Shown piece by piece: positions 27,149-33,856 of a stretch of 33,856 nt of DNA. Position 1 is the stretch's first letter. Every line of letters starts with the position of its first letter. The notes under the pieces are model-generated. The model did not search any database, was not told where the DNA came from, and was given only the letters and a program-made list of their open reading frames with translations. The translations under genes and the position numbers were made by a program. Origin of the DNA: Candidatus Mucispirillum faecigallinarum (lineage in GTDB: Bacteria > Chrysiogenota > Deferribacteres > Deferribacterales > Mucispirillaceae); assembly GCA_019116905.1 (NCBI GenBank), contig DXAQ01000128.1, positions 1 through 33,856 on the forward strand. Direction: 5' to 3'.

Positions 27149-29056
27149 TTAAAATTGTGAGTAAAATACAGTTGTATTTGTACCCTGAAGTGTTAAATTA
27201 TCAGGGGTTGTAAGCCATTTTTTATACTGAAATGTATATGGCACTGCATTTTGTTTTACATATCCTGTATAAGTTGTATATATGTCTGTAAATGGCGGAG
27301 TATCAATAAAAATATCAAGCATTTCTGCAAGACTTATATAACTTGAAAGATATTCTTGTGTATTTTCTTTATTATTAAATTCAGGCACATTGTATATTGG
27401 GTCATCTGTTACATTTCTGCCTGTTACAAGTATCATTTTCAAGAAATCTTTATATAAATTATTAAAATTCATACCTGATGCTTCTTCTACTGCCTGATAG
27501 CCTAGATATTGTGAATTTATAAGTTTTTGTATACCAGTATCACCAAACCTGTAATAAAAATAACGCATAAAAAGATAAGAATAACCATAACTTAAATCTT
27601 GTGTATTATTAACAAGTGGTTTATCTAATTCATAGGCAAAAAAGTTTAATAAATGGTCTCTCATAGTTGCAGGATAGCCTGTATAATATGCTGTAAGTGT
27701 TGATAAACCTTCATTTATCCAGTAATCCATAAAAGGTTCTTTACCAGCATTTAAGCGCACATCAAAAAGTGCCATGTGGTGAAATTCATGAGTTAATGTA
27801 GATAACAGACTATCTTTATTTAGTTCCCAGCTTATGTTTTTTTGCAAGTAGTCAGATTCTATATACATCATATCTGATTCATTAGAACGAACGCCTGATG
27901 ATAATATTGATGCATCACTGTATTTATCTGCTGTGTAGAAAAAACCAAGAACATTGCTGCCTATTGGAGTAAAAAGAAATACTATTTTACCATTTGCATC
28001 TACATCATTTTCATGACCGCATTTTTCATGAACTTTTTGATATGCAGCAGCAAACTTTTCATCAATTTCTTTCACTCTGTTTATATCTATACTGGCAGTA
28101 GATACTCTGTCATCAAGAAAATAATATACGTTATCAGATACATATATGCATGTAGCATTAGTTAAATACTGCTGTGAAGTTGTTACATCCATTACCCATA
28201 CATTATTCCATTTTGTTCCAGTATTAATAGTATTAGGAAGTGTTTTGTATAGTGCATTATTATTTTTACTGATAGGTTTTATATTTTTTTCTTTGACTAT
28301 ATTATTAATATTAATCTGTGATTTTATAATATTTCTGCTAACATTATCATTATCAAATAAGGCATTATCTTCTATATATTTTTGCATTGTAAGGTTTGAT
28401 GCAGTAGAACCTGTTAAAGAATATGTAACATTTGCAGGCAGCGTGTCAGTAGGTGTTTGAGGAATATGGCTTGCAATAGAATATAATATATAGTTTGTTT
28501 TGTTATTTTCTAAACTGCCTTCATTAGTGTCGTCCTGATTTGTTTCATTATCTTTATTGTTTGTCTGCTGGTTATCAGTATTTGTGTTATCAGTATTATC
28601 ACTGCCAGTATCAGTATCTGGTTTATCAGTGCTGCCGCTCCCAGTATCAGTATCTGGTTTATCAGTGCTGCCGCTGCCAGTATCTGTATTTGGTTTATCA
28701 GTATTATCACTGTCTGTGTCTGTATTTGGTTTATCTGTATTATCACTGCTAGTATCTGTATTTGGGTTGTTGGTATTTTCACTGTCAGTATCAGTGTTTT
28801 GTTCATCAGTGTTTTCGCCGTCAGTATTTGTATCCCCCTGGTTAATACTGCCAGAATTAATACCTCCAGTATCGCCTGTTTCTATACCACTAATACTTGA
28901 ATCTCCAGAACTGCCTCCGTTATTTCCAGAAGGATTTGAACTGTTATTGTTTTCATTTAATCCACTGTTAACAGCAGACTGGTTATTATCGCTGCTTTCA
29001 ATGGCGCAGCCAAAAAGAAGAAAAATACAACTAACTAATAATATAAGTTTTTTCAT
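27149..29056 (-). CDS. Lipoprotein zinc metallopeptidase, M30 (hyicolysin)-like
   Basis: A 635-residue protein with lipobox MKKLILLVSCIFLLFGC (Cys17). Residues about 25-195 are a low-complexity Asn/Asp/Thr/Gly/Ser linker containing six 12-residue repeats. The C-terminal half carries TLTHEFHHMALF with the zinc motif HExxH at 423-427 and a downstream YWINEGLSTLTAYY whose Glu is the likely third zinc ligand, as in peptidase family M30. The enzyme is probably tethered to the outer membrane by a flexible stalk and acts on proteins outside the cell. ATG at 29056 is preferred: GGAG lies 6 bases upstream, and it gives a clean lipoprotein signal; an ATG four codons earlier overlaps that site. It is downstream of two metallophosphoesterase genes in the same direction. 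Confidence 0.85.
   Translation of the reverse strand: MKKLILLVSCIFLLFGCAIESSDNNQSAVNSGLNENNNSSNPSGNNGGSSGDSSISGIETGDTGGINSGSINQGDTNTDGENTDEQNTDTDSENTNNPNTDTSSDNTDKPNTDTDSDNTDKPNTDTGSGSTDKPDTDTGSGSTDKPDTDTGSDNTDNTNTDNQQTNNKDNETNQDDTNEGSLENNKTNYILYSIASHIPQTPTDTLPANVTYSLTGSTASNLTMQKYIEDNALFDNDNVSRNIIKSQININNIVKEKNIKPISKNNNALYKTLPNTINTGTKWNNVWVMDVTTSQQYLTNATCIYVSDNVYYFLDDRVSTASIDINRVKEIDEKFAAAYQKVHEKCGHENDVDANGKIVFLFTPIGSNVLGFFYTADKYSDASILSSGVRSNESDMMYIESDYLQKNISWELNKDSLLSTLTHEFHHMALFDVRLNAGKEPFMDYWINEGLSTLTAYYTGYPATMRDHLLNFFAYELDKPLVNNTQDLSYGYSYLFMRYFYYRFGDTGIQKLINSQYLGYQAVEEASGMNFNNLYKDFLKMILVTGRNVTDDPIYNVPEFNNKENTQEYLSSYISLAEMLDIFIDTPPFTDIYTTYTGYVKQNAVPYTFQYKKWLTTPDNLTLQGTNTTVFYSQF
28583..28798 (-). 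repeat. Six tandem 36-bp repeats coding a 12-residue linker unit
   Basis: The unit encodes variants of NTDTDSDNTDKP; the two neighbouring copies GSTDKPDTDTGS are nearly identical at the DNA level. It makes the extended stalk of the M30-like lipoprotein. Perfect neighbouring copies suggest recent slippage or recombination, so copy number may vary between strains. Confidence 0.9.
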
Positions 29057-29090
29057 AATATACTCCATAAAAATATATTAATATATTATT

Positions 29091-29129: not shown

Positions 29130-30248
29130 TTATAAATCTTTACCTTTTACGTTTATAATAAGTATTTCAGAATCTGTGCCAACTCTAACTGGTGGACCCC
29201 ATAAGCCTAAACCACTTGATACAAAATAATAAAAGCCGTTATCATTAATCATGCCGTGTGGTAAAAAAGTTAGTATCTTTATAATTAAATTTAAAGGAAA
29301 CGTCTGCTCGTCATGAGTATGACCTGAAATCTGTATATCTGCATTTATTTTTCTGCCGTCATCAAGTCCTTTTGGTACATGGTCTAATATAATTACTGGT
29401 TTTGATTTATCTTCTATATTATTATACAGTGATACTATATTCTGCCTTTTACTGCCGTTATCATTTGTATGGCGCAGGCTGTCTCTGCCTATAATATATA
29501 TTCCTTTTTCTTGAATATAGGTTACATTATCAAGCAGCACTTTTATATTAGTTTTTTCAATTAATGATTTTAGAGTTGCTGCATCTGCACTGTAATAATC
29601 ATGGTTGCCAATCACTGCATATACTCCAAGGGGAGCATATAATTTTTTTAATGCATCAATATGAGCGTATGTAAAATCTTTAATGTTATTATCAATTATA
29701 TCGCCAGCTATAAAAATAATATCAGGATTATATTTATTAATATTATTAACTTCTTTTTCAAGCCTTGCAGGGCTCATATCTGCTCCAATATGCAAATCTG
29801 AAACAGCAGCGATTTTTAGTTCTCCATTTAAGTGTTTATTAAGTGTTATATTGTATTCTGCTGTTTTTGTGTCATGGCTGTTTATATAGCCATATAAAAC
29901 TGTAATAAATGTGGCAGAAAGGACTATGATTAACTGTAATTTATGTGTGATAAATGGTTTATGTATGATTTTAAAAATAATCCTTACAATATCTGTAATT
30001 ATTAAATACATAAAAAGATAGTTTGTAACCGCAAGTATAATATGTGTTGCAAATACTATATTATGCGGCACATTAATATGGCAGTATTTTACTAAGATAC
30101 GGACTATTAAAAAAGAGCTGAATACTAAAAGCAAAGATATTATAACAGGCAGTTTTTTATATTTTGTAAAAAAAGCCTGATAAAGCCTGTAAGCAGTATA
30201 TAATCCAAAAACAATACTTTGCAGAATTATTAAAATTAGTATGCCCAT
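29130..30248 (-). CDS. Membrane metallophosphoesterase (copy 2)
   Basis: A 372-residue protein: four hydrophobic segments in the first about 130 residues, then a calcineurin-like phosphoesterase domain. Metal-binding motifs in order are AAVSDLHIGAD, IFIAGDIIDNN, VIGNHDYYS and ISGHTHDEQ. Such YkuE/YaeI-type proteins are membrane-bound phosphodiesterases; some act on phospholipid or UDP-diacylglucosamine-type substrates. It lies six bases after its paralogue and is clearly a tandem duplicate, with the two sharing the same TM layout and almost the same catalytic text. The usual GHTHDGQ reads GHTHDEQ here, a Gly-to-Glu change next to a metal ligand, which may alter activity. AGGA precedes the ATG. 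Confidence 0.88.
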   Translation of the reverse strand: MGILILIILQSIVFGLYTAYRLYQAFFTKYKKLPVIISLLLVFSSFLIVRILVKYCHINVPHNIVFATHIILAVTNYLFMYLIITDIVRIIFKIIHKPFITHKLQLIIVLSATFITVLYGYINSHDTKTAEYNITLNKHLNGELKIAAVSDLHIGADMSPARLEKEVNNINKYNPDIIFIAGDIIDNNIKDFTYAHIDALKKLYAPLGVYAVIGNHDYYSADAATLKSLIEKTNIKVLLDNVTYIQEKGIYIIGRDSLRHTNDNGSKRQNIVSLYNNIEDKSKPVIILDHVPKGLDDGRKINADIQISGHTHDEQTFPLNLIIKILTFLPHGMINDNGFYYFVSSGLGLWGPPVRVGTDSEILIINVKGKDL

Positions 30249-30254
30249 ATTTAA

Positions 30255-31367
30255 TTATTTTCCTGTTACATTTATTATAAGTATTTCAGAATCAGTGCCA
30301 ATACGAATAGGCGGACCCCATAAACCTAAACCGCTTGAAACAAAATAATGAAAGCCGTCATAGTTTTTCATACCATGGGAAAGCTCATACATTTTATTTA
30401 CAATTAAATTACCTGGGAAAAACTGTCCGTCATGGGTATGACCTGAAATCTGTATGTCTGCATTTATTTTTCTGCCATCAAGAGAAGATTTTGGTATATG
30501 GTCTAATATTATTACAGGTTTAGTTTTATCTTCCACCTGCTTATAAAGTGTTTCTATGCTTGTTCTTTCATCATTTTTAGAGTTTGTATGCCTTAAACTG
30601 TCCCTGCCTATAATATAAAATTCTTTTTCAGGTATATATGTAACATTATCTACTAAAACATGAAAACCTGATTTTTCAAAAAGTTTTATTATATCTGCCT
30701 GGTTGCCGCTGTAATATTCATGGTTTCCAAAAACTACGTATGTGCCAAGTGGCGCATTTATTTTTTGAAACTCTTTAATATATTCTTCTTTATAGTCTTT
30801 AATGTTATTATCAATTATATCACCAGCAATAAAGACAATATCAGGCTTTATATCGTTTATAAGTTTGATTTCCTTATAAAGCCTGCTGCTTGTCATATCT
30901 GAACCAATATGAATATCTGATAAGGCTGCTATTTTAAAAGGTTCTATTACTTCTTTATTAAGCACTATATTATATTCATTTATTTTGGTTGTATGGCTGT
31001 TTAAATACCCTAAGGCACATACAAGCACTGCCGTAATTGTTACTATTAAACCTTGTATATAGTGGCTTATAAACTGCTTATGCAGCCGTTTAAATATTAT
31101 TCTTATAATATCTGTAACAAGGTAGAGCATAAAAATATATATGCATACTGCAAAAATTATGGTTGATATAAAATTTAATATATAAGGTATTACTATATCT
31201 GCGTTTTTACTTATTATTTTTAAGATAATAAATAAATTGCTGGTAACCATTATAGATGATATTATTAATGCTCTATTATATTTAGTAAAAAATGATTGGT
31301 ATAAACGGTATGATAAATATATGGTAAAAACAATATCTTGTAACAAAATAAGAAACAGCATACTCAT
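30255..31367 (-). CDS. Membrane metallophosphoesterase (copy 1)
   Basis: A 370-residue paralogue of the next gene downstream. It has four N-terminal membrane segments, then the catalytic motifs AALSDIHIGSD, VFIAGDIIDNN, VFGNHEYYS and ISGHTHDGQFFPGN, the last in canonical form. The active site probably holds two metal ions. The substrate is unknown; membrane anchoring with the catalytic domain after the last segment suggests a lipid or envelope phosphoester. Note NHEYY where most have NHDYY. An AGGAG site 6-7 bases upstream fixes the ATG at 31367, and a good promoter lies just ahead. It is the first gene of the operon that continues to the paralogue and perhaps the M30 lipoprotein. Confidence 0.9.
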   Translation of the reverse strand: MSMLFLILLQDIVFTIYLSYRLYQSFFTKYNRALIISSIMVTSNLFIILKIISKNADIVIPYILNFISTIIFAVCIYIFMLYLVTDIIRIIFKRLHKQFISHYIQGLIVTITAVLVCALGYLNSHTTKINEYNIVLNKEVIEPFKIAALSDIHIGSDMTSSRLYKEIKLINDIKPDIVFIAGDIIDNNIKDYKEEYIKEFQKINAPLGTYVVFGNHEYYSGNQADIIKLFEKSGFHVLVDNVTYIPEKEFYIIGRDSLRHTNSKNDERTSIETLYKQVEDKTKPVIILDHIPKSSLDGRKINADIQISGHTHDGQFFPGNLIVNKMYELSHGMKNYDGFHYFVSSGLGLWGPPIRIGTDSEILIINVTGK

Positions 31368-31388: not shown

Positions 31389-31417
31389 AATATATAAAAA
31401 TAATTGACAAATATCAA
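31389..31417 (-). promoter_or_regulatory. Promoter of the metallophosphoesterase operon
   Basis: Leftward TTGATA (31412-31417), a 17-base spacer and TATATT (31389-31394), 22 bases before the start codon. It lies downstream of the candidate small-RNA terminator, so the two transcripts are separate. Confidence 0.5.
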
Positions 31418-31454: not shown

Positions 31455-31495
31455 AAAAAAAGACTGCCGAAAAAGGGTCAGTTTTCCGGCAGTCT
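31455..31495 (-). terminator. Strong intrinsic terminator with no annotated gene upstream
   Basis: Leftward AGACTGCCG/CGGCAGTCT (31487-31495 and 31461-31469) is a 9-bp perfect stem extended by AAAA/UUUU, followed by a U6-7 tract (plus-strand A run 31455-31461). The nearest protein gene to the right ends about 330 bases away and has its own terminator, so this one must serve another transcript, here the candidate small RNA. Confidence 0.9.
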
Positions 31496-31601
31496 ATTTC
31501 AGCTTAAAAGCTGCATAGGAGTTCAAATATAACACAGGGGAGGTTGTTTATATTTGAAAAATATATATGGGAAAGAATAAAAAAGACTTAAATTGTCTTA
31601 T
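31455..31601 (-). ncRNA. Candidate small RNA with C-rich anti-Shine-Dalgarno loops
   Basis: Read leftward, an approximately 147-base unit has no open frame but clear folds. A weak 5' hairpin AAGAC/GTCTT is followed by a 9-bp perfect stem CAAATATAA/TTATATTTG (31548-31556 and 31524-31532) whose loop contains AACCUCCCC. Then come single-stranded AACUCCUAUG, a small CAGCUU/AAGCUG hairpin, and a strong terminator whose loop reads CUGACCCU. Three C/U-rich single-stranded patches complementary to ribosome-binding sites are typical of trans-acting regulatory RNAs. Promoter-like boxes lie at 31608-31635. The start is approximate. No match to 6S, tmRNA, SRP RNA or RNase P is seen. An rRNA-like or CsrA-sponge reading on the opposite strand (GGA in loops) is less likely because that strand lacks a terminator. 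Confidence 0.55.
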
Positions 31602-31607
31602 ATTAGA

Positions 31608-31635
31608 AATATAAGTTATTTTCTGTAAAAATCAA
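31608..31635 (-). promoter_or_regulatory. Candidate promoter of the small RNA
   Basis: Leftward TTGATT (31630-31635), 16-base spacer, TATATT (31608-31613). A start 6-8 bases on would be near 31601. The rest of the gap, 31636-31757, is AT-rich and shows nothing else recognisable. Confidence 0.4.
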
Positions 31636-31759: not shown

Positions 31760-31799
31760 AAAAAAGCCTGCCAAAAATTCTACACAATTCAGCAGGCTT
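31760..31799 (-). terminator. Terminator of the substrate-binding protein operon
   Basis: Leftward AAGCCTGC/GCAGGCTT (31792-31799 and 31764-31771), 8-bp stem with a 20-base loop, then a U6 tract (plus-strand A run 31760-31765). It lies 23 bases after the stop of the last substrate-binding gene. Confidence 0.9.
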
Positions 31800-31822
31800 G
31801 TTATATAATATTGTATAGTATG

Positions 31823-32818
31823 TTATTTTGTAATTAATTTACCGTCTTTTATGATATACTCTGCAGAGTTAATCATTTCATCGCTAAAATTAATACCCAG
31901 TAATTTTGCAGTATCTAAATCAAGCAGTTTTTTATAAAATGCTGGGTCATTTAATGAGAGTATTGGCAGTTCATCAGCCTTTTTACCCTGCAGCACTTCT
32001 GCAACAAGTTTACCTGTCATTCTTCCCATTTGATAATAGCTGAACCCTAACGCATAAACTACTCCGCCATTTAATGTTGGTGTGATATCGCCGCCAAAAA
32101 CAGGTATTTTATTTTGTTTTGCTGTATCTGTTAAGGCTGTCATCGCTGTTGCAATAGAGTTATCTGTAAAGCAGTAAAATGCATCTACCCTTGAAACAAG
32201 GCTTTCTGCTGCCTGTTTTACTTCGGCAGGGGTAGTAATCGTCTGCACAATTAATTCTACACCCATTTCATCGCACACTTTTTTTGTAGTTTCTGCCATA
32301 CTTACAGAGTTTGATTCAGATGTTGTATATATTACGCCAAGTTTTTTAAAATCGTATATTTTTTTAAACTCTGCCAGCTGTTCTTTTATAGGTATTGCAT
32401 CTATTACCCCTGTAATATTTTTATGGCCTTGTGTAATAGATGAGGCAAGCCCTGCTTTTACAGGGTCAGTTACTGCTGTAAAAACAATAGGAGTATTTGT
32501 CAGCTGTTTTGAAAGTGCTACAGTTATTGGGGTAGCAATACCAACAGCCACATCAATCTTATCGCTTTTAAATTTACTGGCAATAGCTGATGCAATATTT
32601 AAATCACCATTTGCATTCTGCAGGTCAATATTTGCTTTAACGTTAAGCTCTTTTAATTCATCAAGTACGCCTTTTTCTGCATCATTTAATGAATTATGGG
32701 AGATTAATTTAGCAATCCCAATAGTTGGAAGTTCTGGGTTTTTTGCCTCATTTTTTTTACATGCTGTAATGTTTAATATTAAGCCAAAAGCTAATAATGT
32801 TATTAATATTTTTTTCAT
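31823..32818 (-). CDS. ABC transporter substrate-binding lipoprotein, TrpX/PF04392 type (second copy)
   Basis: A 331-residue lipoprotein; signal MKKILITLLAFGLILNITAC with lipobox ITAC (Cys20). The type I periplasmic-binding fold of the ABC_sub_bind family is seen in PTIGIAKLISHNSLNDAEKG, PIVFTAVTDPVKAGLA, ITGVIDAIPI, KLGVIYTTSESNS, DAFYCFTDNSIATAM and VYALGFSYYQMGRMTG. The family binds small ligands such as tryptophan or tyrosine for an ABC importer; specificity here is unknown. ATG at 32818 has AGGA upstream; a TTG two codons earlier is unlikely. It follows its paralogue by nine bases. No permease or ATPase gene is in the window; they may be beyond the right edge or elsewhere. Confidence 0.93.
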   Translation of the reverse strand: MKKILITLLAFGLILNITACKKNEAKNPELPTIGIAKLISHNSLNDAEKGVLDELKELNVKANIDLQNANGDLNIASAIASKFKSDKIDVAVGIATPITVALSKQLTNTPIVFTAVTDPVKAGLASSITQGHKNITGVIDAIPIKEQLAEFKKIYDFKKLGVIYTTSESNSVSMAETTKKVCDEMGVELIVQTITTPAEVKQAAESLVSRVDAFYCFTDNSIATAMTALTDTAKQNKIPVFGGDITPTLNGGVVYALGFSYYQMGRMTGKLVAEVLQGKKADELPILSLNDPAFYKKLLDLDTAKLLGINFSDEMINSAEYIIKDGKLITK

Positions 32819-32827
32819 AAGCAAATC

Positions 32828-33829
32828 CTATTTTTTTACTTCTTTTCCATTTTCTAAAAATATAGTATTTTCAGAAATCAGGTCTGCAGGAATTGTTACA
32901 CCAAGAGCTTTTACTACATCATTATCAATAATAGTTTGTGTTTCTTTTGCACCTTTTACAAACCTTGTTGGTATATCTTCTGTTTTTTTGCCGTTTAAAA
33001 TGTCTATAATCTGCTGTCCTGCAAGTCTGCCGATTGTATAATAATCAGCCCCTGCAGTATATAAAACTCCGCCAAACTGTAAAGAAGATGATGGGTCAGC
33101 AGAAAATACTGGCAGATTATTTGCAGCAGCTGTTGATGTAACTGCGCTAAGAGATGAGCATACATTGTTATCTGTTACAACATAAAATGCATCAACTCTG
33201 CCGATTAAGCTTTCTGCAGCCTGTTTTATTTCGCCAATATTAGTTATTGCCTGGCTTAATAATTTAATACCTAATTTATCACAAACTTCTTTTGTCCTTC
33301 TATTCATTACAACAGAATTATCTTCTGAGCTTGTGTAAATCATACCAAGTTTTGTAAATGGCACAATAGAGCGGAAAGCATTAATTTGATTTTCAATATC
33401 TACAGCATCAGAAACGCCTGTAATATTTTTGCCGCCTTTATCAATGCTTGGTACAAGTTTAGCAGATACTGGGTCGCTTATTGCAGCAAATACAATAGGA
33501 GTATTTTTCATAGTATTAAGCAGAGCAACAGCCATAGGTGTGCCTATACCTACTGCAACAGCTGCACCGTCCGATTTAAATTTATTAGCAATAGATGTAG
33601 CAATATTCATATCTGCATTTGCATTTTGGAAGTCATAGTTTACTTTCACTCCTTTTTCTGCAAGTTCATCTTGAATACCCTGTTCTACTGCGTTTAAGGC
33701 TGGGTGAGCAAGCAGTTTTGCAACAGCAACAGTCGGCAGAGATTGTGAAGCAGCATCTTCATTTTTTTTACATCCTGAAACTGCTGCAAGTAATACAACT
33801 GCCATAGAAATAATCATTAATTTTTTCAT
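32828..33829 (-). CDS. ABC transporter substrate-binding lipoprotein, TrpX/PF04392 type (first copy)
   Basis: A 334-residue lipoprotein with signal MKKLMIISMAVVLLAAVSGC (Cys20). It is a clear paralogue of the next gene: PTVAVAKLLAHPALNAVEQG, PIVFAAISDPVSAKL, ITGVSDAVDI, KLGMIYTSSEDNS, DAFYVVTDNNVCSSL and VLYTAGADYYTIGRLAGQQ line up one to one. Tandem copies with divergent pocket residues (FTDNSIATA against VTDNNVCSS) suggest two ligands, or two affinities, served by one transporter. ATG at 33829 follows a GGAG site; a TTG four codons upstream overlaps that site. It is probably first in the operon, with the promoter beyond the window edge. Confidence 0.93.
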   Translation of the reverse strand: MKKLMIISMAVVLLAAVSGCKKNEDAASQSLPTVAVAKLLAHPALNAVEQGIQDELAEKGVKVNYDFQNANADMNIATSIANKFKSDGAAVAVGIGTPMAVALLNTMKNTPIVFAAISDPVSAKLVPSIDKGGKNITGVSDAVDIENQINAFRSIVPFTKLGMIYTSSEDNSVVMNRRTKEVCDKLGIKLLSQAITNIGEIKQAAESLIGRVDAFYVVTDNNVCSSLSAVTSTAAANNLPVFSADPSSSLQFGGVLYTAGADYYTIGRLAGQQIIDILNGKKTEDIPTRFVKGAKETQTIIDNDVVKALGVTIPADLISENTIFLENGKEVKK

Positions 33830-33856
33830 TTCATTCTCCAAATATTATTTTTTATT

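Follow-up and report, generated by a model that had tools for sequence, protein, structure and literature searches.

A single-copy, probably non-coding RNA gene conserved across Mucispirillum that exposes two C-rich sites and may mask Shine-Dalgarno sequences

Several small RNAs with C-rich motifs, or with pairing to G-rich leaders, are the closest described systems for the locus analysed here. The defining trait of RsaE/RoxS, from Staphylococcus and Bacillus, is its several conserved unpaired C-rich regions, which are considered to pair with Shine-Dalgarno sequences (PMC4409812). RepG binds a G-rich stretch in a 5' UTR of Helicobacter pylori, a host without Hfq or ProQ (PMC8322730). In addition, IsrR, an iron-sparing RNA from Staphylococcus, carries C-rich motifs and is predicted to pair with the mRNAs of respiratory proteins that contain iron (PMC9410917). 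Mucispirillum lives in the mouse gut and has been linked to inflammation; in the open literature, we found no description of a small RNA in this bacterium, or of post-transcriptional control in its phylum.

The region between a substrate-binding protein gene and a metallophosphoesterase gene of Candidatus Mucispirillum faecigallinarum is very probably (about 93%) a real small RNA gene, belonging to a previously unlisted RNA family of a kind that is already familiar. It would be transcribed leftward, as its own gene, from about 31601 to 31455 into a non-coding RNA of about 147 nt displaying two single-stranded C-rich sites: a linker, CUUUCCCAUAU, and a hairpin loop, AAC(C/U)UCCCCU. Acting in trans, these sites would base-pair with several mRNAs at their purine-rich Shine-Dalgarno regions, blocking ribosome binding independently of Hfq. 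Such masking of Shine-Dalgarno sites in trans is the likely mode of action.

The window, i.e. the whole stretch of 33,856 nucleotides that was analysed, belongs to a genome (G000) whose nearest named relatives are Mucispirillum assemblies. We searched 100 related genomes at the DNA level and 60 genomes with a covariance model, and aligned the intergenic region using the metallophosphoesterase gene as anchor. All three approaches agree: 8 of the 10 Mucispirillum genomes have one copy of the element, always at the same place. In G007, the orthologous interval is C1:2142578-2142755, on the minus strand. The two others are incomplete (G002, 86% complete, whose assembly ends inside the metallophosphoesterase gene, and G005, 57% complete), so the lack of the element in them is uninformative. 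The eight genomes fall into clade A (G000, G003, G004, G009 and G007) and clade B (G001, G006 and G008). The features of the locus are as follows.

31823..32824, minus strand: upstream gene, outside the RNA, encoding an ABC transporter substrate-binding protein (Pfam PF04392, E 2.8e-62)
about 31762-31800, minus strand: terminator of the upstream operon (hairpin folds with z = -3.4)
31635-31630, minus strand: -35-like box TTGATT (promoter scan)
31613-31608, minus strand: -10-like box TATATT, separated by a 16-nt spacer from the -35-like box
31583..31599, minus strand: 5' hairpin AAGAC-AAUUUAA-GUCUU (folding), with a stem invariant within clade A
31562..31575, minus strand: single-stranded linker CUUUCCCAUAUAUA, conserved C-rich site 1, unpaired in the folds
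31524..31556, minus strand: C-loop hairpin presenting AACCUCCCCU, conserved C-rich site 2 (folding and alignment)
31500..31523, minus strand: AACUCCUAUG followed by a small GCAGCUUUUAAGCUGC-like hairpin, in clade A only and missing in G001, G006 and G008
31495-31461, minus strand: intrinsic terminator, a 14-pair hairpin followed by TTTTTTATTA, with a U-tail to about 31454 (terminator scan)
31389..31417, minus strand: promoter-like site of the metallophosphoesterase gene, TTGATA-17-TATATT (scan, 10/12 matches)
30255..31367, minus strand: downstream gene, outside the RNA, encoding a calcineurin-like metallophosphoesterase (Pfam PF00149, E 2.3e-17)

The promoter-like boxes, the 9-bp stem, the unpaired stretch and the terminator hairpin on which the original prediction was built are thus all found on the minus strand, where it placed them or close by. 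Its proposal that both neighbouring operons have signals of their own also held, as a terminator of the upstream operon and a promoter-like site of the downstream gene were both found.

The pair of promoter-like boxes (31608..31635, minus strand) has 9/12 matches in the scan, and a CTTG(A/C) box and a TATAT box lie at an equal distance from the RNA in all eight aligned genomes. The RNA would start near 31601. The linker CUUUCCCAUAU (31575-31565) is invariant in these eight genomes and unpaired in the computed folds. The stem of the C-loop hairpin has 9 bp, CAAAUAUAA/UUAUAUUUG, and three further inner pairs are possible; on the minus strand, its DNA arms read CAAATATAA (31556-31548) and TTATATTTG (31532-31524), with AACCTCCCC at 31545-31537 and AACTCCTATG at 31523-31514. 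The 149-nt transcript would fold at -38.4 kcal/mol, whereas dinucleotide shuffles give -16.6 +/- 3.2 (z = -6.8; none of 200 shuffles was as stable). The region contains no ORF of at least 80 aa. The only short frames, started by GUG or AUG and 5-13 codons long, are frame-shifted in G007 and absent from clade B in the alignment; with no conserved ORF seen, the region has the non-coding character of a base-pairing small RNA. In this AT-rich DNA, the scans returned 34 promoter-like sites (29.8 expected) and 3 terminators (2.1 expected), and by themselves they are no evidence. What raises the region above chance is the conservation of its sequence.

Among the five genomes of clade A, the RNA core (31519-31601) has a mean pairwise identity of 97-98%, and the segment from the -35 box to the RNA start 84%, versus 68% for the upstream spacer. 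The flanking spacers reach 64-68%, the start of the downstream coding sequence 70% and the end of the upstream one 87%. Hence, the initial proposal of a separate small RNA gene carrying a C-rich loop finds strong support in an element found at one place in eight genomes, with signals at both ends conserved in all of them and a core more conserved than the neighbouring genes. In the C-loop stem, 98.9% of the pair cells are paired across the eight genomes; of the 13 pairs, 9 are invariant and 4 vary on one side only. No compensatory double change was found in this stem among these genomes because it hardly varies, and covariation neither supports nor refutes it.

All eight genomes share the loop AAC(C/U)UCCCCU, presented as AACYUCCCC. 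Clade B retains the linker together with the hairpin CAAAUAUA..AACUUCCCCUGU..UAUAUUUG, whereas its 5' hairpin differs (GGAUAAA/UUUAUCC at the corresponding place) and its terminator, a hairpin GUGGUUUC...GAAACCAC with a U-tail, is unrelated in sequence. The clade B RNA would be about 110 nt long, and the two that were folded have z = -5.8 and -6.0. Since both C-rich sites are kept in clade B despite a different 5' hairpin and an unrelated terminator, selection probably maintains a short, terminated RNA and the exposure of its two C-rich sites. In clade A, the stem of the terminator is kept, its upper part is variable and its loop drifts freely. Free drift of loops and stems in close relatives would have counted against the original prediction; for the C-rich hairpin, the comparison instead favours the RNA, but the terminator loop CUGACCCU is not kept. 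This loop, with 36% identity in clade A, is not supported as a pairing site, and neither is AACUCCUAUG, which is clade-specific, being absent from clade B and changed to AACCCUAUG in G007. The second conserved pairing site is instead the linker CUUUCCCAUAU, with its UUUCCC, which had not been put forward.

As far as searched, the RNA family appears to be restricted to Mucispirillum. No convincing match was found outside this genus among the 60 genomes searched with the covariance model (best E = 0.13 and 0.56); the match at E = 0.13 was rejected as AT-rich sequence with no resemblance to the RNA. No second genomic copy was found, a short 85% match on contig 2 of G008 being inside a coding region, and viral contigs gave no match. 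Scanning with Rfam 15 gave no match at the gathering score, and none for the region when E was relaxed to 5. The best sub-threshold Rfam match, AaHKsRNA41, lies on the terminator side and reaches 22.8 bits, far below its gathering score of 97; it was discarded.

Any C-rich stretch resembling an anti-Shine-Dalgarno sequence is expected to pair with Shine-Dalgarno sites. We predicted duplexes for 678 genes, defined by a simple ORF rule in stretches of G007 totalling 0.8 Mb (about a third of the genome), taking -15 kcal/mol or better as a strong duplex, ignoring accessibility and using 20 shuffles as controls. The loop gave 11 strong duplexes at ribosome-binding sites versus 1 in gene interiors, and its shuffled versions gave 2.4 +/- 1.7 (maximum 5), a clear enrichment in these predictions. 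The linker gave 16 versus 0, with 7.8 +/- 4.3 for shuffled versions (maximum 17); its predicted enrichment is weak to modest because one shuffled set reached as many matches. Some of the matches are start regions with G-runs, for instance AUGGGGGGGGGGAU at position 1451604 of G007. Furthermore, Hfq had no match in any of the 10 Mucispirillum genomes, while 5 of 14 control genomes were matched.

A small RNA that works mainly through a protein or through another RNA, acting as a sponge or titrating an RNA-binding protein and not targeting ribosome-binding sites of mRNAs, is an unlikely alternative. The C-loop stem is conserved in sequence and not by its pairing alone, which would fit recognition by a protein as well as pairing, but the most constrained bases are those of the unpaired anti-Shine-Dalgarno-like sites, which favour ribosome-binding sites over gene interiors.

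It is quite unlikely that the region is a leader of the metallophosphoesterase gene, i.e. a riboswitch or an attenuator with a condition-dependent terminator, even though it is highly structured and always located just upstream of this gene in the same direction. Indeed, CTTGATA and a TATATAAT/TATACT-like box recur before the metallophosphoesterase gene in all eight genomes, between the terminator and the start codon, so that this gene would have its own conserved promoter. Folding of the full leader predicts no alternative antiterminator, and a shared antiterminator partner is impossible because the terminator hairpin differs entirely between the clades. Moreover, no riboswitch of Rfam matches the region. 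An independent RNA, with its own promoter-like boxes and terminator as originally proposed, is the better reading of these sequences. Lastly, it is highly improbable that the region is only a conserved spacer or 3' end belonging to the upstream operon, or a functionless chance hairpin: scans for promoters and terminators do return about as many sites in this AT-rich DNA as in shuffles, but the upstream operon stops at its own terminator, the drop to 68% identity in the intervening spacer already disfavours this reading, and the fold, far more stable than shuffles, is kept across both clades.

The surroundings of the RNA gene show other particularities. Terminator loops usually drift; the long loop AAUUGUGUAGA of the upstream terminator (31762-31800, minus strand) is nearly invariant in clade A, and a second RNA, derived from a 3' UTR, is possibly encoded there. 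The RNA gene is preceded by a tandem pair of related substrate-binding proteins (31823-33841, minus strand) from the TrpX-like ABC_sub_bind family. Two adjacent metallophosphoesterase paralogues that are 58% identical (29130-31367, minus strand) are found in clade A, and clade B shows one. In addition, a 36-bp tandem repeat in 6.6 copies (28573-28810), encoding a Thr/Asp/Asn-rich repeat, is located close to the start of a putative surface protein of 639 aa that resembles lipoproteins (27149-29068).

If the independent small RNA acts on mRNAs, sequence complementarity points, as the best conserved lead, to a NapC/NirT-type multihaem cytochrome (PF03264, E 5.6e-15), with an mRNA start region that reads UAUAUGGGAAAGGAGUAAAUAUG. 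Among the 678 genes of the G007 sample, this region comes second for the linker, at -20.3 kcal/mol. The pattern TATGGGAAAG precedes the cytochrome gene in G003, G004, G007, G001, G006 and G008, with 11-14 continuous pairs across its Shine-Dalgarno site and predicted duplexes of -16 to -24 kcal/mol. By contrast, the pairing is broken in G000 and G002, where AUGUAAAAGGAG replaces AUGGGAAAGGAG and the site reads AUAUGUAAAAGGAG; the predicted duplex of G000 has only -13.1 kcal/mol. Therefore, the cytochrome is a lead at the level of the genus and not a claim for the genome of the window. Matches of TATGGGAAAG to a methionyl-tRNA-synthetase-like gene were rejected, being inside the coding sequence. 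We also dropped the conserved GGGGAGGUAAUAAUUAAUG, located before a zinc-ribbon protein gene, as it may fall within the end of the preceding frame and its conservation could come from coding.

In mice, M. schaedleri has its DNRA and cytochrome c genes among those that it expresses most (PMC5285517), which makes respiration an attractive process for the RNA to control, although this role is unproven. A central Hfq-independent small RNA that tunes anaerobic respiration in Mucispirillum, repressing the quinol-linked NapC/NirT-type cytochrome and other mRNAs through its two separate C-rich sites, with a target set rewired in the branch of G000 and G002, is a doubtful extension of this lead. Besides the cytochrome, the start of an isochorismatase-like gene (L096 in G006 and L093 in G001) carries GGGGAA(G/U)UGUAUG, conserved in several species and complementary to the loop of the clade B RNA; as a target, this gene is a weak candidate, an idea only. 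A recurring 21-nt match (query 74-94) upstream of it was set aside as promoter-type AT-rich sequence with an ordinary GGGGAAG Shine-Dalgarno.

A single-copy RNA that is found genus-wide, with a core more conserved than the neighbouring genes, offers a concrete entry to post-transcriptional control in this phylum. Moreover, two clades with unrelated terminators around shared pairing sites make a clean comparative case.

The original prediction named RsaE-type and RepG-type RNAs; membership of either family is not supported, and the resemblance is one of mechanism only. In RepG, the pairing loop is the terminator loop. In the Mucispirillum RNA, however, this loop lacks conservation, clade B has an unrelated terminator, and the C-rich sites are on a separate hairpin and a linker. 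The two RNAs share a host lacking Hfq, or in which none was detected, and pairing with G-rich 5' UTRs, which for the Mucispirillum RNA is a prediction, whereas the targets of RepG are homopolymeric G repeats of variable length. The likeness to IsrR is a lead only, consisting of C-rich motifs and a candidate respiratory target, with no homology detected. RsaE/RoxS differs by a covariance model that does not match the region, no homology in sequence or structure being detected with Rfam; the Mucispirillum RNA belongs to another phylum (Deferribacterota), and its two C-rich sites have their own sequence and layout. RsaE/RoxS is controlled by a two-component system that senses O2 or NO (ResDE/SrrAB). 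Nevertheless, both are RNAs of about 100-150 nt with their own terminator and unpaired C-rich sites, Hfq being undetected in Mucispirillum, and the redox and central metabolism targets of RsaE/RoxS have a possible counterpart in the respiratory cytochrome that is the lead target here.
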